From Asticcacaulis sp. MM231 (GTDB taxonomy: Bacteria; Pseudomonadota; Alphaproteobacteria; Caulobacterales; Caulobacteraceae), in assembly GCF_964186625.1 (NCBI RefSeq), contig NZ_OZ075109.1, positions 62,001 through 126,000 on the forward strand: a stretch of DNA of 64,000 bases, written 5' to 3'. A program made the position numbers and the translations under genes. The notes beneath the pieces were generated by a model. That model was not told the DNA's origin. It did not search any database and was given only the letters and a program-made list of their open reading frames with translations. This document shows positions 5,060-32,903 of the stretch, piece by piece; the first letter of the stretch is position 1, and every line of letters begins with the position of its first letter.

Positions 5060-5854
5060 ATGCAGCGTCATCTGAGGATAAGCCTGCTCACAATTTCAGT
5101 TGCCAGCGTGCTCACCACGCCCGCCCTCGCGCATTCGCCCTATTTGAAACCCAACACCTTTACCGCGGAGAGCAAGCGCACGCATGTGACGGTGGAGGCC
5201 GCGTTTGCCGAAGGGGATTTGCGACCGGACGTCGCCATGAAGTCCGATGCTTTCCACGCGGTCGCCCCCGATGGCCAGATCTTCCCCCTCCCCCCTGCAG
5301 CCACGCTCTCGGATGCCACCTTCCTGGAAGTGCCACTAACACAGAACGGCACCTGGCTGATTACCTCTGGTGTGCGCCAGGGCCGTGTGGCCAAGGCAGC
5401 GCTCAAGGATGGCCAGATCCGCTTCTTAGAGGGCGGTGCCGCGCCCGGTGCCGGCGAGACCGCGATCGATGTGCGCAGCGTGACCCGTGCCGACGTCTAT
5501 GTCAGTCGCGGCACACCGGCCCTAAAAGACATCACAACTGAACCGGGCGTCGAAATTCATCCCGTAACCGCGCCGTATGACGCCTATGCCGGCGAGCCGT
5601 TCAAACTGTCCGTGCGCGAAGGCGGTAAGGGCCTTGCGGCGGCAGACGTCACCGTCACGGCCGACGGCGAAACCTATAACGGCAAGTCTGCGCCTGTCGA
5701 ACTGAAGACCGATGCATTAGGGCAAGCCAGCTTCACGCCATCAAAAGCCGGTCTCTACCTGATCCAGACACGGGTGCGTCGCGCATCTCCCGACACGCCT
5801 GGCCTGTGGCTCAGCAACACTGCCACCCTTACCCTCGAAGTCCTCCCCCAATAA
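5060..5854 (+). CDS. Periplasmic DUF4198 (NikM-like) protein
   Basis: This 264-residue secreted protein has a signal peptide (ISLLTISVASVLTTPALA, cleavage near residue 24) followed directly by HSPYLKP, a His-containing mature N-terminus typical of DUF4198 proteins. The family has Ig-like beta domains (here GEPFKLSVREGGKGLAAADV and DALGQASFTPSKAGLYLIQT) and often accompanies metal uptake genes. Position next to a Fur box and opposite a heme-type receptor suggests a periplasmic role in metal handling, which is inference. GGAAAGG at about 5042 is the likely ribosome site. The EF-hand gene follows after 16 bp. Confidence 0.8.
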   Translation: MQRHLRISLLTISVASVLTTPALAHSPYLKPNTFTAESKRTHVTVEAAFAEGDLRPDVAMKSDAFHAVAPDGQIFPLPPAATLSDATFLEVPLTQNGTWLITSGVRQGRVAKAALKDGQIRFLEGGAAPGAGETAIDVRSVTRADVYVSRGTPALKDITTEPGVEIHPVTAPYDAYAGEPFKLSVREGGKGLAAADVTVTADGETYNGKSAPVELKTDALGQASFTPSKAGLYLIQTRVRRASPDTPGLWLSNTATLTLEVLPQ

Positions 5855-7268: not shown

Positions 7269-7429
7269 GCTCTGTCCACGCCCCCGCACGTCCGCGCAAC
7301 GCTCCACACAGCCACGTGGCCGCACCCCTACACCACGTCACGCGCACCTGCCGACACACCCGCACCCGGACCCGTCGGCGCGTCCACATACCAAACCGTC
7401 CGCACGTCCAGTTATCCAAAGGCTTACAC

Positions 7430-8143
7430 ATGAAAACCCTGGCCATAGTCTCCCAGAAGGGCGGCGTGGGTAAAACCACCATTGCTGTGCATATTGCCGT
7501 CGCGGCCGCCCGCGCCGGTTACAGCGTCGCCATCATCGACCTGGATCCCCAGGCCACCGCTGCCCAATGGGCAGACTGGCGCGGGGCAGGGGAGGGAGAT
7601 CACGATCCCAACCCGGTCGTCGTCGCCGCCCCTCATGCGCGACTGGCGCCCACTCTCAAAGAAGCCGAGAAGATGGGGGTCGATCTCGTTATTCTTGATT
7701 CGCCGCCGGCGGCGGACAGCGCCGCCGTCGCCGCCGCAAGGCAGGCCGATTACGTGCTTATCCCGACCCGCGCCTCGGCCTTCGACCTGCACGCCATCAA
7801 GACCACCGCCGAACTGGTGCGCGTTGCGCAAAAGCCTTCGGCCGTGCTGCTCAACGCCGTACCGGCCCGCGCCAACAGCCTGATCGACGAGGTCGCCTCA
7901 GTCATCCACAGCCTGCAACTGAATATTGCACCGGTGTGCCTGGTTGATCGCGCCGCCTTGCGCCACGCCGTCATCAACGGCCAGACCGCCAGCGAATACG
8001 AGCCGCTCGGCAAGGCTGCCGAGGAGGTCCGCGAGCTCTACAAGTGGGTGTGTGGACGCCTGGACATGCCCGCATATCCAAAAGCCGACAAAAAAGCCCT
8101 CAAGATTTTCAAAGAAAAACAACCCTTTAAAGGTGCCGCATGA
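7430..8143 (+). CDS. parA: ParA-family partition ATPase
   Basis: This 237-residue protein has the deviant Walker A box QKGGVGKTT (about residues 9-17), Walker A' IIDLDPQATAAQWADWR (about 37-53) and Walker B VDLVILDSPP (about 81-90). This is a short ParA without an N-terminal HTH, as in type Ib-like plasmid systems and MipZ/Soj relatives. It would segregate this replicon using ATP-dependent nucleoid binding with a centromere-binding partner. The ATG at 7430 is chosen because the P-loop then sits at the usual distance and AAAGG lies just upstream. Its stop overlaps the start of the RHH gene (ATGA, 8140-8143). Repeats upstream may be the centromere. Confidence 0.93.
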   Translation: MKTLAIVSQKGGVGKTTIAVHIAVAAARAGYSVAIIDLDPQATAAQWADWRGAGEGDHDPNPVVVAAPHARLAPTLKEAEKMGVDLVILDSPPAADSAAVAAARQADYVLIPTRASAFDLHAIKTTAELVRVAQKPSAVLLNAVPARANSLIDEVASVIHSLQLNIAPVCLVDRAALRHAVINGQTASEYEPLGKAAEEVRELYKWVCGRLDMPAYPKADKKALKIFKEKQPFKGAA

Positions 8144-8493
8144 GTAAATCCGCTTCCCGCCCCTCGCTCGCTGACCGACTAGCCGCCGTGGCCGGTCCGC
8201 AAATCTCGCCGTCCGCCGTTATCGAGAAGGAAGCCGGGCAGGCTGTCAAGGTCCAGGCGCCAAAGATATCAAAAGCGGCCGTTCGCGACCCCGAACCGGC
8301 ACCAGCCCCCGTGTCGAGCGTCACCAAGGCGCGCGTCGGCAAGACCATGATCGCCGGCTATTTCACACCGCAGATGGCCCGCGCCGTCAAGATGCTGGCG
8401 GTAGAGCGTGACACCACGGTCCAGGCCTTGATAGGGGAGGGGCTTGATGCCGTTCTGCACAAACACGGCAAGCATCCGATGGGTGAACGCTAA
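8140..8493 (+). CDS. Ribbon-helix-helix partner of ParA
   Basis: This 117-residue basic protein has a flexible N-terminal half (about 1-65, rich in Ala, Pro, Lys, Val) and a C-terminal ribbon-helix-helix-like segment (about 67-110: GKTMIAGYFTPQMARAVKML, AVERDTTVQALIGEGLDAVL). Small proteins of this layout directly after parA act as centromere-binding adaptors and often as autorepressors. It is translationally coupled to parA by a 4-base overlap. A longer ParB is absent, so this is the likely ParB equivalent. The DNA site is unknown; the repeats at 6929-7012 are candidates. Confidence 0.8.
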   Translation: MSKSASRPSLADRLAAVAGPQISPSAVIEKEAGQAVKVQAPKISKAAVRDPEPAPAPVSSVTKARVGKTMIAGYFTPQMARAVKMLAVERDTTVQALIGEGLDAVLHKHGKHPMGER

Positions 8494-8545: not shown

Positions 8546-9472
8546 ATGTCCAAACGCCGCGATCCCAATGCCGAGTTAGATCTCTTTATACCCTTGCTCC
8601 ACGATGTGGCGCTTAAGGATCAGCGCGAGACCATGGAGCGGCCGTTTTTCTCGCTGCAAAAGCGTAAAAGGCTGAAACCGATCGAGTACAAGAGCCCCGA
8701 CGGTGAGGTCTGGGTCAAGGTGGAAGCCATGCCGGCCTATGGCATGGCTACCATCTGGGACGCCGATATCATAATCTGGGCGGCTTCGGCGCTGAACCGT
8801 ATGAAGGCCCAAGGTGTGAACGATCTGCCGCGCACACTGAAAACCACCACCTATGACCTTTTGCGCGCCATCAAGCGCGATACCGGCGGCAAGAGCTATG
8901 CCGAACTGCAGGCGGCACTGCAACGGCTGGAAACCACCTCCATCCGGACGTCCCTACGCGCACCGACACGGCGTCAGGAGGCGCAATTCGGCTGGCTCGA
9001 CGGCTGGACGCTCGAGATCGACCCGGAAACCGGCCAGCCGCGCGGCATGACCCTGACCCTGTCCAACTGGGTCTATGAGGGCATTACCGGCGAACGCTCG
9101 CTCCTGACCATGCATCAGGACTATTTCCTGCTCACCGGCGGGCTGGAGCGCGCGCTTTACCGCATCGCCCGCAAACATGCCGGCGTGCAGCCCGAGGGCT
9201 GGGTGTGCAGGATCGAGGTTTTGCATAACAAGACGGGCTCTGACAGCCCGCCCAAGGAATTTAATCGCATGTTGCGCAAGGTGGTCGAACGCAACCAGAT
9301 GCCGGAATACGATATTTCCTTCACCAAGACGCAGGATGGCTCGCCCGCGGTGTTTATTATCTCGCGTTTGGCCCAGCTTGACGACCAGGTGGGTGGAGAA
9401 TTGGCCCTGCTGAACGCTCAGGATCAGGATATCGCCGTATCTGCCCCTAAAAAGACAGGTAAACGGGCCTGA
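8546..9472 (+). CDS. repA: Plasmid-type replication initiator (RPA family)
   Basis: This 308-residue protein matches the Replication initiator protein A family of alphaproteobacterial plasmids. Visible marks are the N-terminal FIPLLHDVALKDQRETMERP (about 14-33), MATIWDADIIIWAASALNRM (about 67-86), and a winged-helix-like core with RTLKTTTYDLLRAIKRDTGG (about 96-115), YAELQAALQRLETTSIRTSL (about 119-138) and WLDGWTLE. It would bind the iterons downstream and open the AT-rich part of the origin. It lies 52 bp after the RHH gene on the same strand. About 730 bp of non-coding DNA with iterons follow, the normal arrangement for an iteron replicon. It is not RepABC-type. Confidence 0.9.
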   Translation: MSKRRDPNAELDLFIPLLHDVALKDQRETMERPFFSLQKRKRLKPIEYKSPDGEVWVKVEAMPAYGMATIWDADIIIWAASALNRMKAQGVNDLPRTLKTTTYDLLRAIKRDTGGKSYAELQAALQRLETTSIRTSLRAPTRRQEAQFGWLDGWTLEIDPETGQPRGMTLTLSNWVYEGITGERSLLTMHQDYFLLTGGLERALYRIARKHAGVQPEGWVCRIEVLHNKTGSDSPPKEFNRMLRKVVERNQMPEYDISFTKTQDGSPAVFIISRLAQLDDQVGGELALLNAQDQDIAVSAPKKTGKRA

Positions 9473-9817
9473 ATCCTTCATTCCCAAGGGTTTGACGGGG
9501 ATAAGCACGGGGTATCGCACACCCGAAAGCCCGATAACCCTTTGCACACAAGGGAAGGGCAGGGGGCCTTATTCCGGGAATCATCGGGGTATCACACACC
9601 AAATGAAGGTTAACGAAGAATTAACACGTCCCTTAAGGTGCGCCAGACCAGCCAAACGAGTTGCCAAATAGGCACATTCAGGCCTTCGGGGGATTACACA
9701 CCCTCTGAAACGGACGAGCGACGGGATTGGGTTCCTCGCAAACAGAATTATCACCGTCATCGGGGGATCGCACACCGGCATCTCCACCCATTTTAGGCCG
9801 GGGCCTGTGGGTAAACT

Positions 9818-9826
9818 TGTGGATAA
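9818..9826 (-). promoter_or_regulatory. DnaA box in the origin
   Basis: TTATCCACA on the minus strand is a perfect consensus DnaA box. A one-mismatch box (TTACCCACA) is at 9806-9814, 12 bp away in the same orientation. DnaA probably assists the initiator here. Confidence 0.75.
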
Positions 9827-9860
9827 ATGGCATTTGAGAAACCGGCGCTGGCTTATTCCA

Positions 9861-9944
9861 CGGGGGAACGCCCACTAAAGCCTCGGGGGATGACACACAC
9901 TTGAAACGGGGTTTCACCCACTGAAGCACGGGGTATCTCACACC
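9861..9944 (+). repeat. Phased iteron array (22-23 bp period)
   Basis: Four iteron units start at 9861 (CGGGGGAACGCCCACT), 9884 (CGGGGGATGACACACA), 9907 (CGGGGTTTCACCCACT) and 9929 (CGGGGTATCTCACACC). The outer left unit and the third are degenerate. The spacing puts all four on one face of the helix, as in classical iteron origins. Confidence 0.75.
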
Positions 9945-23377: not shown

Positions 23378-25282
23378 GTGAGCTTTATCGCTGCCCTTGT
23401 CGTATCTGCCGCGCTTTCCGGCGATGTTGCCATCCTGCATAAATATGACGGTTTGTCCCTGTCGCCCGACGGCAAGACCCTCGCCACCTTCGACTCAGCC
23501 GCACCCGTGGGCTCCGTGGCATCGGTGCATTCCGTGCTGACCCTGCGTGATACGGCCGGCAAGATTATCGCCACCAACGATCCTTGTGCCGAGTGCAAGT
23601 ATGACGCCCTGGCCTGGTCGCCGGACAGCCTGGCCCTGGCCTTTCTGGCGGCTGATCGCAAGTCCGGCGTGACCACGCTCTATGTGCTGGAGGGTAAGAC
23701 CGCGCGCATTGTGACCACGATCAAGGGCAATGCCGGACGGCCGCGCTGGTCACCCGATGGCAAGACCCTGGCGGTTCTGGCAACGGTCGGCGCACGCAAG
23801 GAAACCGGCGCGACGCAAGCGGGTGCCGCCCTGGTGGGTGAAATCGGTGTGGCGGGCGCGATTGATGAACAGCGCATCGCCACCGTGCCGGCGGCCGGGG
23901 GCGACTTAAGTTTTGTCTCGCCCGCCGATACCTGGGTCTATGAATATAGCTGGCTGCCGGATGGCACCGGTTTTGTCGGCACGGCCGCCAAGGGCGATGG
24001 CGACAACAACTGGTGGACGGCGAAACTGGAAGCCTTCGGACGCGACGGCTCGGAACGGGTGATCGCTGCGCCGAAGCTGCAGATGAACATGCCAAAGGTC
24101 TCACCCGATGGTCAGAACGTCCTCTTTATCGGCGGCCTGATGAGCGATTTTGGCGTGGTGGGTGGCGACGTCTACAGCATACCTTTGACAGGCGGAGAAT
24201 TGCGCAACCTGACGCCGGATTATAAGGCCAGTTTCACCAGCCTGAGTGTGACGAAAAGCGGCGTACTGGCGACCCTGATCACCGGCGGCGATACCGGCGT
24301 TGCGCGCATCGACCCGGTCAGGGGTGGCGTGACCGTACTGTCGAGCGGCCCGGTGTCCTCCAGCGCCGGCGAGGGGCGCATGGCGTTCGATACCGCGGGC
24401 ACCACAGCCGCCGCCGTGGTGGAAAGCTTCACCCAGGCGCCGCGCATCGCTTTTGGCAAGCCGGGGGATCTGAAGCCGGTGACCTCCGACAATGACGCGG
24501 TGACGGTCTCGTTCTCGGCCAAGAGCGTCACCTGGACGCATGACGGTTACGAGGTGCAAGGCTGGCTGCTCGCCCCGGCCGATGTGGAAAAGGGCAAGAC
24601 CTATCCGATGGTCACCCTCGTCCATGGCGGCCCGGCCTCGGCGGTGACGCCGCGCTTTTCGGCGTCCGGTTCGATGTATGAACTGCTCAAAGGCGGCTAC
24701 TATATCTTCCAGCCCAATCCACGCGGCTCCTTCGGGCAGGGCCAGGCCTTTACCCGCGCCAATGTGCGTGATTTCGGCGGGGCGGATCTGGGCGATATTC
24801 TGGCAGGCATCAACGCGGTAGAGAGAATAGCGCCGGTCGATGACAAGCGCCTGGGTGTCTTTGGCCACTCCTACGGCGGCTTTATGACCATGTGGACCGT
24901 GACGCATTCCAAGCGCTTTAAGGCGGCCGTGGCCGGCGCCGGCATCGCCAACTGGATCAGCTATTACGGCCAGAACGGCATCGACCAGTGGATGATCCCC
25001 TTCTTCGGCGCCTCGGCCTATGACGATCCGGCGATCTACGACAAGCTGTCGCCGATCCGCTACATCAAGACCGCGGTGACACCGACCTTCATCTATGTCG
25101 GTGAGCGCGATGTCGAATGTCCGCCGGCACAATCGATGGAGATGTGGCACGGATTGAAGGCGCAGGGCGTGCCGACCTCACTGGTTATCTATGAAGGCGA
25201 GGGGCATGGCATCCGCAAGCCGGAACATATCCGCGATCTGAACAACCGCATCACCGGCTGGTTCGATACCTATCTGAAATAG
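23378..25282 (+). CDS. S9 family peptidase (prolyl oligopeptidase / acylaminoacyl peptidase type)
   Basis: This 634-residue protein has a short N-terminal hydrophobic segment (MSFIAALVVSAALSG), a seven-bladed beta-propeller-like region (about 20-380, with repeated SPDG.. units) and an alpha/beta hydrolase domain (about 390-630). The nucleophile serine is in FGHSYGGFM (about 503-511), the acid in YVGERDVECPPAQS (about 575-588) and the histidine in EGEGHGIRKPEH (about 610). GTG at 23378 is preferred because GGAG lies 8 bp upstream; a GTG 9 bp earlier is possible. It cleaves short peptides. No functional link to neighbours is evident. Confidence 0.9.
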   Translation: MSFIAALVVSAALSGDVAILHKYDGLSLSPDGKTLATFDSAAPVGSVASVHSVLTLRDTAGKIIATNDPCAECKYDALAWSPDSLALAFLAADRKSGVTTLYVLEGKTARIVTTIKGNAGRPRWSPDGKTLAVLATVGARKETGATQAGAALVGEIGVAGAIDEQRIATVPAAGGDLSFVSPADTWVYEYSWLPDGTGFVGTAAKGDGDNNWWTAKLEAFGRDGSERVIAAPKLQMNMPKVSPDGQNVLFIGGLMSDFGVVGGDVYSIPLTGGELRNLTPDYKASFTSLSVTKSGVLATLITGGDTGVARIDPVRGGVTVLSSGPVSSSAGEGRMAFDTAGTTAAAVVESFTQAPRIAFGKPGDLKPVTSDNDAVTVSFSAKSVTWTHDGYEVQGWLLAPADVEKGKTYPMVTLVHGGPASAVTPRFSASGSMYELLKGGYYIFQPNPRGSFGQGQAFTRANVRDFGGADLGDILAGINAVERIAPVDDKRLGVFGHSYGGFMTMWTVTHSKRFKAAVAGAGIANWISYYGQNGIDQWMIPFFGASAYDDPAIYDKLSPIRYIKTAVTPTFIYVGERDVECPPAQSMEMWHGLKAQGVPTSLVIYEGEGHGIRKPEHIRDLNNRITGWFDTYLK

Positions 25283-25320
25283 CCCCGAAATAGTCTTGTA
25301 TCAGGCCGTGCCTAGCCTAC

Positions 25321-25845
25321 ATGACAGCCATGGATAAGTTCGGCCCGCTACCGCCTGATCATGTGCCCGACCTGCTGACGACGGGTCTGAAGGTCGTGTT
25401 TTGCGGCACGGCGCTGGGTCGCGTCTCGGCGGAGAAGCGCGCCTATTACGCCAATCCGGGCAACTTTTTCTGGCGCGCCCTGCACGAGGCGGGTTTGACG
25501 CCGCACCGGATCAGGCCGCAGGACTATGCCTTATTGCTCGATTACGGCATCGGCCTGACGGATCTGTGCAAGGCGCATTTTGGCAATGACAACCAGTTGC
25601 CGCAGGGTGCGCTCGACGCGGCGGCCCTGCGCGCCAAGATCGAGCTGTACCAGCCGGACGTCCTTGCCTTCACCAGCAAGACCGGCGCAAGTGTCTTTCT
25701 CAATCGCCCGACCGGCCGCATCACGCTCGGTTTCCAGCCGGAGCAGATCGGCCGCACGCGCCTCTGCGTACTGCCGTCGCCCTCAGGTCAGGCGCGCGTC
25801 TATTGGAACGCCCAGGCGTGGCAGGATCTGGCGGCGGAGCTCTGA
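25321..25845 (+). CDS. mug: G/U mismatch-specific DNA glycosylase
   Basis: This 174-residue protein matches Mug/TDG. The catalytic motif is NPGNFFWRALHEAG (about 42-55), with the active Asn at 45, and the DNA-intercalation motif appears as VLPSPSGQARVYWN (about 150-163). It removes uracil or ethenocytosine opposite G in base excision repair. It starts 38 bp after the peptidase stop. ATG at 25330 is an alternative start. Directly behind its stop lies a perfect, inverted copy of the origin iteron (25855-25870). Confidence 0.92.
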   Translation: MTAMDKFGPLPPDHVPDLLTTGLKVVFCGTALGRVSAEKRAYYANPGNFFWRALHEAGLTPHRIRPQDYALLLDYGIGLTDLCKAHFGNDNQLPQGALDAAALRAKIELYQPDVLAFTSKTGASVFLNRPTGRITLGFQPEQIGRTRLCVLPSPSGQARVYWNAQAWQDLAAEL

Positions 25846-25854
25846 TGCGCCTTT

Positions 25855-25870
25855 GGTGTGTGATCCCCCG
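25855..25870 (-). repeat. Distal iteron, perfect match, intergenic
   Basis: GGTGTGTGATCCCCCG is the exact reverse complement of CGGGGGATCACACACC, a form fully consistent with the origin iterons (CGGGGKATNNCACACC). It lies in the 89-bp gap between mug and the Nudix gene, about 16 kb from the origin. Confidence 0.8.
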
Positions 25871-25934
25871 ATGCTCTTGCTCTTGTGCGCCGATCATGTC
25901 TTCTGACGCTTCGAACTAACAAAGGACGTACCAC

Positions 25935-26873
25935 ATGACGCTTGACGCTTCCACGTTTGCGATGGCCGGACGCTTCGCCCCCCTGACACGCGACGAGGCG
26001 GCGCTGCTTTTGGATGCTTGCGCCGGTTATGGTCAGGTGGTGATACGCATTACAGGCGCGGATTGCGCGCCTTCGACGCAAACGCCGTGGTCCGCAGGCG
26101 AACGAGAAGCCATGATCCGTGCGGCTCTGGGCCCGTTAACTGAGCGTGTGACGTTCCAGCATGTCCGCGACTATCGCTATCGCCCTGATCTGGCGTCAAA
26201 AGCCATGGTCGAAACCTTACCGGTTGAAAGCCTGCCGGATGTCGCAGCACCTATCCGCGCGGCTTTTCTGCGCGAAGGGCCTGCCGGTGTGCGGGATCTG
26301 GTGCCGGAGGCTGTGCTGGCCTGGCTGCAGGCGTTTGCATCAACGCCCGCTTTTGAGCACCTGCACGCCGAGCAGGTCTATATCGACGACTATCGCAAGA
26401 GCTGGGCGGTCGCGCCCTATCCACCGATCTTCGTGATGGTGGATGCGGTGATTGAACATGGCGAGCATGTTCTTCTGGTCAAACGCGGTGGCCAGCCGGG
26501 CAGGGGGCAATGGGCCTTGCCGGGTGGTTTTGTCGATGACAATGAAACCCTGCTGGATGCGGCCCTGCGGGAGGTCGTTGAGGAAACCGGCCTTGATCTC
26601 GCGCCGGGAACTGTTTCCAAGCATTTGCTTGGCAATCATGTCTTTGATGATCCGAAGCGTTCGGCGCGCGGCCGCACCATCACCCACGCCTTTCATTTCC
26701 GCTTCTCAGAGGGAGAGGTTCCCAAGGTAGAGGCTGCAGACGATGCTGCACAAGCCCTTTGGGTGCCCATTTACAAACTCGAAAGCCTGCGCGATCAGCT
26801 CTTCGAGGATCACGGCGATATTCTTGATTATTTCGGCCTTATAGCCAGCGATGGCGGTATGCGCGGCGACTAG
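25935..26873 (+). CDS. Nudix hydrolase with a degenerate NMN-adenylyltransferase-like N-terminus
   Basis: This 312-residue protein ends in a Nudix domain (about 165-305) with the Nudix box GGFVDDNETLLDAALREVVE then ETGLDL (about 197-222), preceded by YPPIFVMVDAVIEHGEHVLL (about 161-180). The segment YIDDYRKSWAVAPYPP and the overall layout match bifunctional NadM-type NMN adenylyltransferase / ADP-ribose pyrophosphatase. The first 150 residues keep the GRFAPL start and PWSAGEREAMIRAAL, but the nucleotidyltransferase HxGH motif is replaced (TRDE follows GRFAPL) and the C-terminal ISSTxxR motif is not seen. The Nudix part is predicted active on ADP-ribose-like substrates; the N-part probably inactive. 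The stop overlaps the convergent halogenase gene by 4 bp. Confidence 0.85.
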   Translation: MTLDASTFAMAGRFAPLTRDEAALLLDACAGYGQVVIRITGADCAPSTQTPWSAGEREAMIRAALGPLTERVTFQHVRDYRYRPDLASKAMVETLPVESLPDVAAPIRAAFLREGPAGVRDLVPEAVLAWLQAFASTPAFEHLHAEQVYIDDYRKSWAVAPYPPIFVMVDAVIEHGEHVLLVKRGGQPGRGQWALPGGFVDDNETLLDAALREVVEETGLDLAPGTVSKHLLGNHVFDDPKRSARGRTITHAFHFRFSEGEVPKVEAADDAAQALWVPIYKLESLRDQLFEDHGDILDYFGLIASDGGMRGD

Positions 26874-28363
26874 ATATATTTCGCCACGAAATCGGCATGG
26901 CGCATCTGAGCCGCGGCGGTGCGTGCCATGATATCGCGCAGGGAGTTGAGCGCCTTCACCACATTTTCCAGCGGCAGGGCGTCGGCTAGCGGATCGTACG
27001 CGGTGGGCATGATGCCCTGTCCCATCATGACCGCCAGCCAGTTCGGCAGCTTGAAGAGCTCCTGCTCCGTGACAAACACCCGGCCACTTGCGGCAAAAAG
27101 CGCCATACGGTGCTTCAGGCTGTCGGAGACAGTGTTGTGTTTGTTGTAAGACCAGAAAGGTGTGTCATCGCGTTCCGTCGCTTTGTAGTGCAGGACGAGA
27201 AAATCACGGACGTCTTCGTAATCGAAGGCTGTCTGCTGGTTGAAAGTCTCGATCAGTTCCGGTTCGAAGCCCATATCGGGTAGGCACTTAATCAGCTTGG
27301 TGACGCCTTTCTGGATAAGATGGATCGAGGTCGATTCCAGCGGCTCCAGGAAGCCGGCCGATAGACCAATAGCGACGACATTCTTTTTCCAGGCTTTGGC
27401 GCGCCGGCCGGTCTGGAAACGAATGAGGCGCGGATCGGCCAGGGCCTTGCCATCAAGATGGCGCATAAGCATGTCGGTGGCGTCATCATCGCTGACGAAT
27501 CCGGAGGAAAAGACATAGCCGTTGCCGGTGCGGTGCTGCAAAGGAATGCGCCATTGCCAGCCTGCGTCGCGTGCGGTTGAGCGCGTATACGGGGTGAGGT
27601 CACCGACGCCTTCGCACGGCACGGCCACGGCGCGATCGCAGGGTAGAAGACTTGACCAGTCGATATAGCCGGTCTTGAGTGTCTTCTCGATCAATAGGCC
27701 GGCAAAGCCGGTGCAGTCGATAAAGTAATCACCGGCCACCTCACGGCTATCGCTTAGACTGACGCCTGTGACGAAGCCGGTTTCAGGATGCTGGCCGACA
27801 TGAGTGATCCGGCCTTCGATGCGCGTGACGCCGCGTGCCTCGGCATAATCCCGCAGATATCTGGCATAGAGTGAGGCATCGAAATGATAAGCATGGCGGA
27901 CGGTCGAGAGCGCGCTGGCCGGATCGCTGGAGGGGGGGGCGAAGCGGTTGTCACGCGCCAGCAGGGCGCTCAGGCAATAATCGTCAAGGTCACCGCCATG
28001 CCCGGCAGCGCGCGCTTTAAGCCAATAGTGGTGAAAATCGCACGCATCGAGCGGATGACCATAGATGCCAAACGGGTGGAAATAGCGGTGGCCTTTGCGT
28101 GTCCAGTCGACGAACTCGATGGCGAGCTTGAAGGTGGCCTGCGTGCGGCGCATGAAGTCGCGCTCATCGATGCCGAGAAGTTGATTGAAAATAGCAAGTG
28201 GCGGGATGCTGGCCTCGCCAACGCCTATGGTGCCGATTTCATCGGATTCGATCAGGGTGATGCGCGTGCTCGTCTTGCCGAGAAAGCGCGACAGGCCCGC
28301 CGCCGTCATCCAGCCGGCCGTACCGCCACCGACAATGACAATGTGACCGAGGGGCTCAGCCAT
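26870..28363 (-). CDS. Flavin-dependent tryptophan halogenase homologue (second of pair)
   Basis: This 497-residue protein is close to the usual length. It has the FAD motif VGGGTAGWMTAAGLSRFLG (about 10-28), the halogenase lysine context ATFKLAIEFVDW (about 80-91), the family motif GWQWRIPLQHRTGNG (about 268-282) and FLEPLESTSIHLIQ (about 341-354), which holds the glutamate equivalent to the catalytic partner in PrnA/RebH. Both catalytic residues are present. In Caulobacteraceae such genes sit behind TonB receptors in sugar-uptake loci and the true substrate is unknown. Its start overlaps the end of the first halogenase gene by 8 bp. It relies on a flavin reductase not seen here. Confidence 0.9.
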   Translation of the reverse strand: MAEPLGHIVIVGGGTAGWMTAAGLSRFLGKTSTRITLIESDEIGTIGVGEASIPPLAIFNQLLGIDERDFMRRTQATFKLAIEFVDWTRKGHRYFHPFGIYGHPLDACDFHHYWLKARAAGHGGDLDDYCLSALLARDNRFAPPSSDPASALSTVRHAYHFDASLYARYLRDYAEARGVTRIEGRITHVGQHPETGFVTGVSLSDSREVAGDYFIDCTGFAGLLIEKTLKTGYIDWSSLLPCDRAVAVPCEGVGDLTPYTRSTARDAGWQWRIPLQHRTGNGYVFSSGFVSDDDATDMLMRHLDGKALADPRLIRFQTGRRAKAWKKNVVAIGLSAGFLEPLESTSIHLIQKGVTKLIKCLPDMGFEPELIETFNQQTAFDYEDVRDFLVLHYKATERDDTPFWSYNKHNTVSDSLKHRMALFAASGRVFVTEQELFKLPNWLAVMMGQGIMPTAYDPLADALPLENVVKALNSLRDIMARTAAAQMRHADFVAKYI

Positions 28364-29906
28364 GCACGGCGTTGAGAAAATTATCGGACGGGCAATGCTG
28401 GGCGATGAACTGGGCGTGCGTCGGCAATTGCGCCACGACCTGCCGTATGCCGTCGCGTCGCTTCTGCACCAAAGCGCGTAGTTCGGCTTCGGATATGCGG
28501 TCGGCCAGTGGATCGTAGGCCTCAGGGATCATACCCTGGCCATTATAGATGGATATCCATGACGGTTCGGCGAAATGGTCGTATTTGCGCAGGATGACCT
28601 CACCGCGTCGGCGGTAGAGTTCCATCTTGTAGGACAGATCGTCCGGGATTGGCATGTCGGCGCAGTAACGCCACAGCGCTTCATCGCGACGGTTGAGACG
28701 GTAGTGCAGCACGATGAAATCGCGAACCTTTTCATAGGCGTCGAGCGTGCGGGCATTGTATTCATCACGCAGGAAAGGATCGATATCGCGGGATGGAAAC
28801 AGTTCCAGCAGGCGGATGATGCCGAGCTGTATAAAGTTGATGGAGGTTGATTCCAAAGGTTCCAGAAAACCGGAAGAGAGCCCGACGCAGATGCAGTTCT
28901 TATCCCAGAACCTGTTGCGATGGCCGGTGACGAACCGGATCAGCGTGGGGTCTTTGAGCGCGGGCGCGTCGAGATTGTTCAGCAGAATGTCGCGGGCGGT
29001 ATCATCGTCCATAAAGCGACTGGAATAGACGTGGCCGTTACCGGTGCGGTGCTGGAGCGGAATGCGCCATTGCCAGCCCGCCGCATGAGCGGTTGAGCGC
29101 GTGTACGGGATCAACTCCGTATTCTTTAGCCCTACCGCTGAGTTACTTGTGGGCTTTGATGTCGGCACGGCCCATGCGCGGTCCACCGGCAGGTAGTCCG
29201 ACCAGTCAGTATAGCCTGCTTTGAGCGCGCCTTCGATCAGCAGGCCGCGAAAGCCGGTACAATCGACGAAGAGATCCGCGGTTTCCATGCTGCCGTCGTC
29301 AAGCGTGAGGCTCTCGATCGAACCGTCCTCGCTGCACAGATTGACTGCACTGATCTTCGCGTTACGACGTTTCACACCGCGCGCCTCGCAATGGCTACGC
29401 AGGAATTTGGCATAAAGCGATGCGTCGAAATGAAAGGCGTAGCTGTAATCGTGCATCGGCGAGCGCGGATCCGGATTGGGCGGAAAGAACTTGCCGGCAT
29501 AGGCCATCTGGGTCGCCAAGCTGTAGGCTTCCAACGGTGTGTGATCCCCCGAGGCCCGGAGCTTGCGCCAGATCTGGTGCGCGGCGAGCCCTTCGTGCAT
29601 GGCGCCGTAGTCACCGAAGGGGTGGAAATAGCGGTTGCCCTTGTGCCCCCAGTCACGGAATTCGATGCCGAGCTTGAAGGTGGCCTCGGTGGCGCGGATG
29701 AATTCGGCCTCATTCACGCCGATATGATCGTTGAAAACGCGCATGGTCGGTATGGTGGCTTCGCCGACGCCAATGATGCCGATATCCTCGGATTCGATCA
29801 GCAGGATTTCGACCGTTTTGCCGAGGCCCGCCGTCAGCGCCGCCGCGGACATCCAGCCGGCGGTGCCGCCGCCTGCAATGATGATCTTCCGGATAGGTTC
29901 GGCCAT
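28356..29906 (-). CDS. Flavin-dependent tryptophan halogenase homologue (first of pair)
   Basis: This 516-residue protein is a paralogue of the downstream gene. It has the FAD motif AGGGTAGWMSAAALTAGLG (about 10-28), ATFKLGIEFRDW (about 74-85) with the presumed catalytic Lys, GWQWRIPLQHRTGNG (about 278-292) and FLEPLESTSINFIQ with the catalytic Glu (about 350-363). It is longer than its partner by an insertion before the WxWxIP motif (TSKPTSNSAVGLKNTELIPY). It follows the large TonB receptor, with a terminator hairpin in the gap (29950-29982). A perfect origin-iteron sequence lies inside the gene at 29536-29551. Confidence 0.9.
   Translation of the reverse strand: MAEPIRKIIIAGGGTAGWMSAAALTAGLGKTVEILLIESEDIGIIGVGEATIPTMRVFNDHIGVNEAEFIRATEATFKLGIEFRDWGHKGNRYFHPFGDYGAMHEGLAAHQIWRKLRASGDHTPLEAYSLATQMAYAGKFFPPNPDPRSPMHDYSYAFHFDASLYAKFLRSHCEARGVKRRNAKISAVNLCSEDGSIESLTLDDGSMETADLFVDCTGFRGLLIEGALKAGYTDWSDYLPVDRAWAVPTSKPTSNSAVGLKNTELIPYTRSTAHAAGWQWRIPLQHRTGNGHVYSSRFMDDDTARDILLNNLDAPALKDPTLIRFVTGHRNRFWDKNCICVGLSSGFLEPLESTSINFIQLGIIRLLELFPSRDIDPFLRDEYNARTLDAYEKVRDFIVLHYRLNRRDEALWRYCADMPIPDDLSYKMELYRRRGEVILRKYDHFAEPSWISIYNGQGMIPEAYDPLADRISEAELRALVQKRRDGIRQVVAQLPTHAQFIAQHCPSDNFLNAVHG
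29536..29551 (-). repeat. Distal iteron, perfect match, inside a halogenase gene
   Basis: GGTGTGTGATCCCCCG again, identical over all 16 bp to the site at 25855-25870 and the reverse complement of an origin iteron form. Here it falls in coding sequence (residues of the segment GDHTP, about 120-124). Confidence 0.75.
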
Positions 29907-29949
29907 GTTCGTCTCCCGCAGGGCCGTTATAGTCGCTTGGTCCTTACAT

Positions 29950-29982
29950 AAAAAGCCCCTTCCGATGGGTACAGGAAGGGGC
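29950..29982 (-). terminator. Terminator between the TonB receptor and the halogenases
   Basis: On the minus strand GCCCCTTCC-type arms (29955-29963 and 29974-29982, perfect 9-bp stem, 10-nt loop) are followed by a run of U (A at 29950-29954). It lies between the receptor stop (30054) and the halogenase start (29906), so halogenase expression is likely attenuated or partly independent. Confidence 0.75.
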
Positions 29983-30009
29983 CAGGTCAGGAGAAGCCGT
30001 CCGGGGAGG

Positions 30010-30040
30010 ACGAAACCGGCTGGACGAGGACCGGTTTCGT
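30010..30040 (-). other. Perfect 10-bp hairpin just after the TonB receptor
   Basis: ACGAAACCGG (30010-30019) and CCGGTTTCGT (30031-30040) form a perfect 10-bp stem with an 11-nt loop, starting 14 bp beyond the receptor stop. No U-run follows. It may stabilise the receptor mRNA 3' end, with the true terminator at 29950-29982. Confidence 0.6.
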
Positions 30041-30053
30041 TACATCGATGCGT

Positions 30054-32903
30054 TTAGTACGTGGCGCGCAGCACGACGGAGATACGACGGTCCGTCTTGA
30101 TGGCCGAATACCATTGGGTTTCCAGCGGGTTGGTCAGATCGCTGGATACCAGTTGCTTGGTGGTGGAGTGACCCAGATTCACTGCCTGGACGCCGATCTT
30201 GTAATTCGCATTGATCGTATAGAAGATTGAGCCATCGAGCTGACCATAGTCGTCAGACCACAGCGGACGATTTACGTTGGCTGCCGACGTGGTGTAGAGG
30301 TATTTGGAACGCCAGTTGTAGGCCAGGCGAGCCGAGATACCGTACTTTTCATACATGAGCGCCGCATTGTAGCTGTCCGGCGACATGCCTTCCAACGGCA
30401 GGGCGTTGAGTGCGCTGCCATCGGTTGCGCCGGAGTTACGGCCACCCGACGAGTTGATATGGGTGTAGTTCGCCTGGACGCCCAGGCCATTGAACGGCGC
30501 GGGAAGGAAATCGTAGAACTGCTGGTAAGCGACTTCGAAGCCCTCGGCCTTACCTTCGACACTTCCGTTGAAGCGGCGCGCCACTTCAAAGTCAAGGGTG
30601 ATGCCGTTGTTGGTGTAGGTTTCAGTTTGGGTACCGTTGTAGATGTAGTTCGACAGGTCCTTCTTGAACAGATCCACCGTGAAGCTGCCGGTGGGCGAGA
30701 AATACCATTCGGCCGTGAGGTCATATTGATTGGCTTCAATCGGCTTAAGATCGGGATTGCCACCCGAACCTGTCAGTTGGTAATCCGTCAGTTCCCCGGC
30801 AGTTGTCAGCGTGAAGCTGGAACTGAGAGCTGTATAGGGGCTCAACCAGGCGAGATCAGGACGAACCATGCCTTTGGATGCAGCAAAGCGGAATTGAAGC
30901 TGGTCGCTCCATTTCAGGCGCACATTCAGGCTCGGCAGCGTGTTCGTATATTTATGGCTCCCGCCGTAGGACTGGAAGAAGGGATTGCCATTGCCACCCG
31001 TGAAGGTGAAGACATCATTGTAAACATCGCAGTTGGTCACGCAGGGCTGGGCCGTGGTCGGCACCGCCATGTAAATGTAGCTTTCACCGTCAGATTTGGT
31101 CTCTACGACGCGAACACCGAAGTTACCATCCAGGATATGACCGTTCACTTCTCCGCCAAATTTGGCTGTGATATAGCCGGCCGTTGTTTTTTCGTTTTGC
31201 GAATTAAGACCATTACCGTTTGTACCGCCGGTGAAGTCCTGGAGCGGACTCCAGCCCCAGCCCGAGGTGTTCGCGGAAGCCAGCATGGCAGCGGTTGCAG
31301 CCGTGCCTTGATTGACGACGGAGGCGTCCGGGAACACCACTGTGCCTGGAACAGGCACGTCGCCATTCATGAAGTTGCTGAAATCGCGTATGTCATAGGT
31401 ACCTGAACCCGTATCGGTTGCATACTCGGTATTGCCGGCATTGCCCCAGTATTGGGCAGACAGGAAGCCCCAGTTGTAAGTCGATTGGCGGGTAATGTAG
31501 TCCTTGTCCGTTGTGCGGACGCCGAACTTGAAGCTTTTGAGCCAGCCTGCATCGATCTCGTAGTCGCCGTCGATACGGGCGGCGATTTCCTTGCCTTGGT
31601 TCTTTTCGATATGATCCATCGCAGCCGACCACCAGTAGGTCGACGGATCGGCAGTGGTGTTGGGCGATGAAATGCCGATCACCGGTAGGTCACCGCTGAT
31701 ATCGATTGACGCGTCTACCTTGTTGGCAATTTGCAAAAACGCCGTGTTCGAGAGCACATTGGCGGTGGAGCGAACATACTGCACGTCGCCCGCAAGTGTC
31801 AGCTTGTCATTCACATTCCAACGGCCGTGCAGCGAAACATCGGTCGTTTCATTATGGTCTTCGCCGTAACGTGTATTCGACGTGATGCCCGCATTTTTGA
31901 CCGTACCGCTTTTGAAGACGCCGTTGGAGTCATATTGGTAGGTAGCCATGGAATCTGCCGACGAAAATTCGCTGCTGTCGTTATAGAAACCAACATTGTA
32001 TTCGGTGTTCTTCGGCTCGGCTTTGGCATTCAGCACCGAAAGGGTGAATTCCAGATCATCGCTCGGGCGCCATTGCAAAGCGCCATTGATGGCGGTGCGC
32101 TTTTGGTTCCATTCGATGGTGCGCCAGCCCATTGTATTCGGTATCAACTTGTCGCCAACCTGATTGTAACGATCAACGGCGATGACATTGGTCATATTGC
32201 CTTCGCTGACCAGCGAATAATTAAGCAGTGCGCCGATTTCACCGATCGATGTATCCCAGCGGTTCGAATAGATGGCGCTGGCGGAATAGTGGTTCTTCTT
32301 TTGCAGATCGCCTTCGGTCGCGTCGACAGAGAATGCCATGATAGGTTTCTTCTGGTCAAAAGGCAGGCGTGTGCGCAGGTTAACCGTGCCACCTATGCCG
32401 CCTTCGATCATGTCAGCCGATGCGTTTTTGTAAACGTCCACGCCGGCGAGCAGGTCGGCGGAGACGTCACCCCAGGACAGGCCGCGACCGTTCTTGGCCG
32501 AGAAAATATCTCGTCCGTTGGTTTCAGAACGCACCCATTGCAGGCCGCGGATTTCGACGCCACCGGCTTCAGCCGTCATGCGGATCGGATCATTGGCTTC
32601 AGCCGCGCGCTGGATGGTGACGCCGGAAATGCGTTGCAAAGCGTCGGCGACCGAACGGTCGGGCAGGGCGCCGATATCGACGGCGGTGACCGAGTTGACG
32701 ATGACGTCCAAATCTTTTTTGATCTTTTGCGAGCTCTTGAGCTGGGCGCGTTGGCCGGTGACAACCACGATCGTTTCGTCGGCCGCAGGGGCGGGTGCCG
32801 CGGCATCCTGCGCGTGAGCCATGCCGCTAAGCGACAGAACGGCCAGAACGGCCATGGAAGCGGTGCCTGTGAGCAGGCCCGATTTTTTCGTAGAGGTTAT
32901 CAT
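30054..32903 (-). CDS. TonB-dependent receptor, Xanthomonas/Caulobacter type
   Basis: This 949-residue outer-membrane receptor has a signal peptide (about 1-32, ending MAHAQ), a TonB-box-like ETIVVVTGQRA (about 45), a plug (about 60-190: ALPDRSVADALQRISGVTIQ, GGVEIRGLQW, ADMIEGGIGGTVNLRTR) and a large barrel ending SVVLRATY. The plug wording is typical of the receptors abundant in Xanthomonas and Caulobacter for plant or algal carbohydrates. ATG at 32903 is chosen for the strong GGGAG upstream. A LacI-type operator lies 261 bp upstream (33164-33177). The halogenase genes follow on the same strand. Confidence 0.93.
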   Translation of the reverse strand: MITSTKKSGLLTGTASMAVLAVLSLSGMAHAQDAAAPAPAADETIVVVTGQRAQLKSSQKIKKDLDVIVNSVTAVDIGALPDRSVADALQRISGVTIQRAAEANDPIRMTAEAGGVEIRGLQWVRSETNGRDIFSAKNGRGLSWGDVSADLLAGVDVYKNASADMIEGGIGGTVNLRTRLPFDQKKPIMAFSVDATEGDLQKKNHYSASAIYSNRWDTSIGEIGALLNYSLVSEGNMTNVIAVDRYNQVGDKLIPNTMGWRTIEWNQKRTAINGALQWRPSDDLEFTLSVLNAKAEPKNTEYNVGFYNDSSEFSSADSMATYQYDSNGVFKSGTVKNAGITSNTRYGEDHNETTDVSLHGRWNVNDKLTLAGDVQYVRSTANVLSNTAFLQIANKVDASIDISGDLPVIGISSPNTTADPSTYWWSAAMDHIEKNQGKEIAARIDGDYEIDAGWLKSFKFGVRTTDKDYITRQSTYNWGFLSAQYWGNAGNTEYATDTGSGTYDIRDFSNFMNGDVPVPGTVVFPDASVVNQGTAATAAMLASANTSGWGWSPLQDFTGGTNGNGLNSQNEKTTAGYITAKFGGEVNGHILDGNFGVRVVETKSDGESYIYMAVPTTAQPCVTNCDVYNDVFTFTGGNGNPFFQSYGGSHKYTNTLPSLNVRLKWSDQLQFRFAASKGMVRPDLAWLSPYTALSSSFTLTTAGELTDYQLTGSGGNPDLKPIEANQYDLTAEWYFSPTGSFTVDLFKKDLSNYIYNGTQTETYTNNGITLDFEVARRFNGSVEGKAEGFEVAYQQFYDFLPAPFNGLGVQANYTHINSSGGRNSGATDGSALNALPLEGMSPDSYNAALMYEKYGISARLAYNWRSKYLYTTSAANVNRPLWSDDYGQLDGSIFYTINANYKIGVQAVNLGHSTTKQLVSSDLTNPLETQWYSAIKTDRRISVVLRATY

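Follow-up and report, generated by a model that had tools for sequence, protein, structure and literature searches.

The 64,000-nucleotide stretch of DNA analysed here (the window) covers positions 62001-126000 of contig C2 of Asticcacaulis sp. MM231, whose genome consists of three contigs (C1, C2, and C3; 4,647,610 bp), with C2 accounting for 618,632 bp. The window contains repA (8546..9472, + strand), which encodes a 308-amino-acid replication initiator of the RPA family (PF10134; 254.7 bits against a Pfam cut-off of 27), and, on the 3' side of repA, an array of origin iterons (9508..9944, + strand) that was found by pattern and matrix scans. Two single iterons lie far from this array, one between a uracil-DNA-glycosylase-family gene (mug) and a Nudix gene and the other inside a tryptophan halogenase gene. 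Together with three identical copies elsewhere on C2, they are well supported by sequence comparisons as predicted remote sites of the RPA-family RepA.

The origin iterons start at 9508, 9585, 9687, 9761, 9884, and 9929 and are directly repeated, all on the + strand. A first-pass annotation of the window had proposed a six-iteron origin consensus. This holds for five of the iterons, which match CGGGGKATNNCACACC exactly; the iteron at 9884 has one mismatch. The matrix scan adds two degenerate iterons near 9860 and 9906. The same annotation had reported two identical, inverted 16-mers (CGGGGGATCACACACC) that fit the consensus, at 25855-25870 and 29536-29551. Both are indeed present, on the - strand, and the identity extends to a 17-mer with a leading T (TCGGGGGATCACACACC). 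Remote iteron 1 (25855..25871, or C2:87855) and remote iteron 2 (29536..29552, or C2:91536) lie 15.9 kb and 19.6 kb from the last origin iteron, and both point to the origin. The first-pass count of two understated the set, as the contig carries five: three further copies of the 17-mer lie outside the window, at C2:1899, 4505, and 5813, on the + strand. Three remote copies are thus 66-70 kb before the origin and two are 16-20 kb after it, and all five face it.

In the whole genome, CGGGGKATNNCACACC has 10 exact matches, and all of them are on C2 (5 in the origin and 5 remote). A whole-genome pattern search found no exact match on C1 or C3, so the many hits on other replicons that had been named as grounds for rejecting the idea did not appear. 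Allowing one mismatch adds 6 matches: three on C1 and three on C2, of which one is in the origin and the others are at 264649 and 432064. The five outside the origin are about the number expected by chance. The one-mismatch search of the genome gave 13 + 3 matches, and a reversed-pattern control gave 2 + 1. (The site at C2:264649, CGGGGTTTCACACACC, has a form that is found in sphingomonad origins.) Within the window, there are 8 matches with at most two mismatches, while dinucleotide-shuffled sequences averaged 0.08. A third-order Markov model predicts 1.4e-5 exact 16-mers per 64 kb, in keeping with the earlier estimate of fewer than 0.001, and 1.4e-4 on all of C2. We also built a matrix from 27 origin iterons of five replicons, which themselves score 22.4-30.1. 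Every remote copy scores 30.1, the highest possible. We scanned the first 126 kb of C2 with this matrix (the remainder was searched by pattern, with up to one mismatch) and, besides the remote copies, nothing outside the array scores 13 or more; none of eight simulated 126-kb sequences contained a score of 15 or more. Furthermore, four of the five remote sites lie outside genes, although just 9.8% of positions are free of genes in a greedy gene set (P = 4e-4). In sum, C2 carries five copies against an expectation of 1.4e-4, on the same replicon as the initiator gene and near its origin (16-70 kb on a 619-kb contig).

Several simpler origins for the five-copy set can be rejected. A chance origin is at odds with the expected 1.4e-4 copies per contig, and reversed-pattern controls gave 0 matches in the exact searches of both the genus and the family. 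The flanks of the five copies are unrelated, which argues against a mobile repeat, and viral contigs gave no match, which argues against a phage motif. The five sites do not appear to be second origins, as none has an RPA gene or an iteron array beside it. We also found no match to an Rfam RNA element in window positions 25000-30500 and no terminator-like or promoter-like match in 25700-26100.

The motif appears to follow the RPA protein. Among contigs of 84,980 species (a search that may omit very near records), the exact 17-mer occurs in 27 stretches. Of these, 17 adjoin an RPA reading frame, mostly in Sphingomonadales; the others are from Asticcacaulis (seven) and from metagenome-assembled genomes of unrelated groups (three). 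The sphingomonad RPA proteins that share this iteron are 68-78% identical to the RepA of C2. The partition genes are another matter. Ahead of repA, C2 encodes a ParA-family ATPase (7316..8143, + strand, start uncertain; from Pfam) and, overlapping it by 4 bases, a 117-amino-acid protein with a C-terminal ribbon-helix-helix domain (PF20605; 8140..8493, + strand; from Pfam and the list of open reading frames), which is probably the partner of ParA in partition. In the sphingomonad loci that share the iteron, BLAST found no homologue of the ribbon-helix-helix protein, and ParA, where detected, is just 33-35% identical. (On plasmids of two sphingomonads, an unnamed small gene lies between those for ParA and RPA and may encode a diverged partition partner that BLAST overlooked.) Conversely, sister RPA proteins that are 65-71% identical to this RepA use a different iteron, CGGGGGAWNNGTGACC. 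Because the iteron is shared by loci with similar RPA proteins and dissimilar partition proteins, and because the sister RPA proteins have another iteron, we conclude that the motif goes with RPA. C2 thus has a PF10134 initiator, a direct-repeat array beside repA, and an iteron type that tracks the initiator across lineages, as in an RPA-type iteron replicon. Plasmids of Caulobacter FWC26 and Phenylobacterium pair ParA with ParB beside RPA, instead of the ParA and ribbon-helix-helix pair at 7316-8493 of the window, which implies that the partition module has been swapped freely around RPA.

The same association is seen within the genus. RPA proteins that are 82-100% identical to this RepA, together with iterons containing CACACC, are present in 5 of 25 Asticcacaulis genomes: this genome (G000), its nearest relative A. 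benevestitus (G002), A. solisilvae (G009), G020, and an uncultured Asticcacaulis (G022). The motif TCGGGGNWTNNCACACC is present in all 5 of these genomes and in 1 of the 20 without this RPA type (G003; P = 1.1e-4, Fisher test). Outside of origin arrays, it has 23 matches in the five genomes and one in the other 20.

Conservation is clearest for the site at 25855. As first described, it lies in the 89-bp gap between mug (25321..25845, + strand; Pfam UDG) and the Nudix gene (25935..26873, + strand; Pfam), 10 bp past the mug stop codon and 64 bp ahead of the Nudix start. Four of the remote sites can be aligned with A. benevestitus, and all 17 bases are identical at each of them, while the 20-bp flanks are 40-90% identical. 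As a baseline, 2,448 intergenic 17-mers were aligned between these two genomes, and 13.8% of them show no change. The Nudix-side site is also found at the same place in A. solisilvae (C13:34994), where it reads TCGGGGTTTCACACACC, a form of sphingomonad origins, and in G022 (C21:4681), even though the Nudix proteins there are merely 45-50% identical. We scanned 21 Nudix loci (19 genes) of the 30 that a homology search had found; the other 9 were weak matches. The site is present in all four genomes that have the Nudix gene on a replicon of this RPA type (G000, G002, G009, and G022), and 15 Nudix homologues that are not on this RPA type lack a full site. (G017, which has no RPA, has TCGTGGGATCATACGCA at the same place, with a score of 6.1.) In the four genomes, the distance from the Nudix-side site to the origin array is 14.8-16.8 kb, but the site is 3' of repA in G000 and G002 and 5' of repA in G009 and G022. 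Similar distances on opposite sides of repA imply that the segment was inverted about the origin, which kept both distance and direction. Maintenance across species is thus seen for the 25855 site; the three sites outside the window are maintained in the nearest relative only, and the 29536 site is not.

The three sites outside the window also lie between genes. C2:1899 is between convergent genes, as is C2:4505, which is 7 bp past a cysQ-like gene. C2:5813 is 5 bp past the stop codon of a GMP-transferase-like gene and 75 bp ahead of the start of another gene. (These two gene names are from reading the sequence.) A. benevestitus has an additional site, C21:65985, in a region without a counterpart in this genome; in all, six exact copies of the 17-mer are found in A. 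benevestitus beyond its origin array.

What might these sites do? The GC skew of C2, binned with the contig treated as circular, stays below zero in every bin from 20 kb ahead of the contig start up to 76 kb and above zero in every bin between 76 and 124 kb, and its sign changes just past the origin array. This implies that replication of C2 starts here and is bidirectional, and hence that nearby remote sites are duplicated early. We lean, with modest confidence, towards the reading that these are high-affinity RepA sites whose early duplication restrains re-initiation; that RepA binds them, that the effect is a negative one, and how it would come about are all inferred. In this scheme, RepA would bind the origin iterons and start replication, and the forks would then pass the remote sites early and double them. 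The doubled sites would draw off free RepA (titration), and bound RepA could pair remote sites with origin sites (handcuffing). Together, titration and handcuffing would make re-initiation within one cell cycle less likely.

A structural comparison also points to a known system. The best fold match of the modelled RPA protein is RctB of Vibrio, and RepE and pi bound to iterons are matched as well; these matches emerged from a second look at 1,000 Foldseek chains. A profile of 27 RPA proteins found nothing among PDB sequences up to an E value of 1. In Vibrio, a 74-kb region about 40 kb away from the origin contains a 39-mer and five remote iterons for RctB (PMC3937223). These remote sites bind RctB, inhibit replication (that of the second chromosome of V. 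cholerae), and lower the copy number of an origin plasmid, and extra RctB relieved this for most of the sites (PMC3937223). The comparison with RctB that was suggested at first pass is apt: both cases involve a secondary replicon, an initiator with the same predicted fold, and single sites outside the origin that span about 75 kb and lie tens of kilobases away (PMC3937223). That both Vibrio and C2 have five iteron sites is a coincidence. C2 differs from Vibrio in that its sites are high-scoring iterons that occur singly and flank the origin on both sides, that nothing resembling the 39-mer is known, and that the initiators share no recognisable sequence relationship. In E. coli, datA and other DnaA sites outside oriC are likewise initiator sites near an origin that are duplicated early; in contrast to the dispersed single sites of C2, datA is one cluster that promotes the hydrolysis of DnaA-ATP (PMC3937223).

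To our knowledge, no nucleotide switch is known for RPA. Negatively acting iterons beyond the minimal origin are also familiar from incC of mini-F and incA of P1, which are next to their origins. The sites on C2 are instead 16-70 kb away; the isolated sites of p1 of Caulobacter sp. FWC26 are within 3 kb. Remote initiator sites are a known kind of element (RctB, DnaA), and what appears to be new is dispersed single sites for RPA initiators that are kept across an inversion about the origin. In agreement with the first-pass remark that none was known for RPA-family replicons of Alphaproteobacteria, our searches of the open-access literature found no description of such sites.

Several observations weigh against this reading. 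The 29536 site is absent from 15 halogenase orthologues with 64-77% identity, which have at least 4 mismatches, so that the conservation in relatives that had been proposed as a check holds for 25855 alone of the two sites in the window. The sites by the cysQ-like and GMP-transferase-like genes are found in G000 and G002 only (20 of 30 cysQ loci and 28 of 28 GMP loci were scanned), which implies that they are recent gains on this replicon. In G020, these two genes are on a replicon of this RPA type without adjoining sites, and its 250-kb replicon has a single remote site. In G011, a near-site (CCGGGGTGTCACACACC) that scores 15.4 and departs from the consensus at one position is retained at the same Nudix place even though the only RPA of that genome is of another type. 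The looser pattern CGGGGKATNNCACACC also occurs exactly, once each, in 4 of the 20 genomes without this RPA type (G003, G005, G010, and G019) and once in 8 of 365 other genomes of the family. In 15 genomes outside Asticcacaulis that have this iteron, TCGGGGNWTYACACACC has 42 matches that form one cluster per genome (at most about 215 bp), and none is remote, so remote sites are not required by such initiators as such. Finally, on C2 of G006 (1,315,949 bp), one site of the sister iteron type is separated from its origin by 527 kb even along the shorter arc, which is too far for "early" duplication.

Other functions for the remote sites must also be weighed. They could be tethers or centromere-like sites, by which RepA organises or segregates the origin region, perhaps with the ParA and ribbon-helix-helix proteins, so that replication control would not be primary. 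Dispersed single sites near an origin do recall the layout of parS, this replicon does have a partition pair, and Vibrio links both functions, in that ParB2 binds a 39-mer of RctB, as reported in PMC3688505. Nevertheless, the 17-mer lacks palindromic symmetry and tracks RPA instead of detectable partition proteins, so we rejected a parS-type site and consider a segregation function in general to be unlikely. If RepA were instead a transcription factor at these sites, the Nudix gene would be one possible target, as the conserved site precedes the Nudix start by no more than about 70 bp in G000, G002, G009, and G022. But the other sites share no promoter position (those at 1899 and 4505 are between convergent genes, that at 5813 follows a stop codon, and that at 29536 is intragenic), no sigma-70-like promoter was found in 25700-26100, and the Nudix homologues that are not on this RPA type lack the full site, which leaves this explanation quite improbable.

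The shared direction of the sites raises the idea of a polar or fork-coupled timing signal, in which the sites would report the passage of a fork and their orientation towards the origin would be part of the signal. All 10 remote instances on contigs that also carry an origin of this type face that origin (they represent 7 independent positions), as do 3 of 4 independent positions for sister-type sites that are over 5 kb away. However, 7 of 7 is weak (two-sided P = 0.016), and we noticed the pattern after the fact. Because of this, and because an inversion about the origin preserves direction by itself, we treat it as just a lead. Other RPA replicons include a site that faces away (G002 C13:85951), and, unlike for the crtS site of Vibrio, the main chromosome has no exact site and so gives no sign of a crtS-like partner. 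(C1 has three one-mismatch matches, and crtS need not resemble an iteron.) A timing signal thus seems improbable. Functionless relics, left behind when origins fused or moved and then spread by recombination, are disfavoured and in our judgement highly improbable. Homology with the nearest relative does begin 9 bp before C2:1899, and sites of this type are also found on other RPA replicons. Still, the sites in this genome each stand alone, without a further iteron or an RPA gene next to them; they have maximal scores, without decay, and are unchanged between species; and they are decayed or missing where this type of initiator is absent. As for the homology edge itself, beyond which the gene differs from that in A. 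benevestitus, it could reflect either recombination at the site or a coincidence.

If the remote sites do titrate or pair RepA, then remote sites that are duplicated early would have arisen on secondary replicons of two bacterial groups that are far apart and have initiators with a common fold. RPA initiators are widespread, with a tblastn match in 1,174 plasmid records. The control that limits the chromids and megaplasmids of Alphaproteobacteria to one round per cycle is known mainly for RepABC replicons. Caulobacterales are a main model for once-per-cycle replication. Because there are few sites, each 17 bp long and most of them intergenic, the proposed restraint on re-initiation can be tested directly.

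A sister system is found on C3 of this genome, where the RPA is accompanied by GTGACC iterons; a single remote copy, C3:383471, lies 32.7 kb from the array. Like C2, these sister replicons (C3 and those of relatives) have the array 3' of repA and remote single sites, some at conserved spots, and their RPA proteins are 65-71% identical to that of C2. They differ in having the half-site GTGACC instead of CACACC, fewer far copies, and a less uniform orientation. Arrays of this kind are present in 11 genomes, which together have 15 GTGACC matches outside them; the 14 genomes that lack such arrays have 2 (in G003 and G010). Some far sites recur at the same places: at the 3' end of one gene (G006 C2:324458, G013 C10:56245, and G001 C1:524886) or between the same two genes (G001 C10:133751 and G013 C9:67408). 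Other isolated sites are within 0.5-2.2 kb of the array, and on p1 of Caulobacter sp. FWC26 (150 of 298 kb scanned) GTGACC sites are found near the array only. An isolated sister-type iteron about 2 kb beyond the array has the direction of the array in G004 (C11:108526), G006 (C2:1111860), G015 (C187:8764), and G019 (C317:6449) and is inverted in G001 (C10:42390) and G013 (C9:4502).

Sites of the C2 type are also found 10-25 kb from repA on RPA replicons with other iterons: G009 C3:399010, G022 C175:6894, G020 C3:102888, G002 C13:85951, and G009 C9:133975. The first two are in the same gene neighbourhood in two species. Cross-talk between replicons is possible. A bolder idea, which we regard as improbable, is that single sites of the best affinity form an origin-directed network, gained and lost by lineage and partly placed near other RPA origins (in G002, G009, G020, and G022). 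Duplication of one origin region would then adjust the free initiator for another; such a network would set the firing of several secondary replicons and would have evolved apart from that of Vibrio. In G003 (C1:64055) and G010 (C32:50371 and 50516), which lack this RPA type, sites are found roughly 15.5 kb away from an RPA gene of a different type; on both contigs, a single GTGACC site flanks that repA on the opposite side, at a distance of 8-10 kb. In A. solisilvae, an iteron match with a score of 20.0 lies inside the repA gene itself (C13:19004).

The second remote iteron in the window is within the tryptophan halogenase gene (28356..29906, - strand; Pfam), as the first-pass annotation had stated, and may be functional or a coincidence. 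It encodes SGDHTP, which is inside a conserved protein stretch, xGDxTPL. Given these amino acids, the probability of the codons is about 1e-3 by the codon usage of the window, and this, along with the lack of the site in the 15 orthologues, is what a chance occurrence of this one copy has in its favour. But all 17 bases are identical to the four intergenic copies, and two rare codons are used (GGG, 12%, and ACA, 12%); on the whole, we think that chance is an unlikely explanation even for this copy. The halogenase has 24 matches in this genome and up to 32 in relatives, and the copy at C2:408766-410238 has two internal stops.

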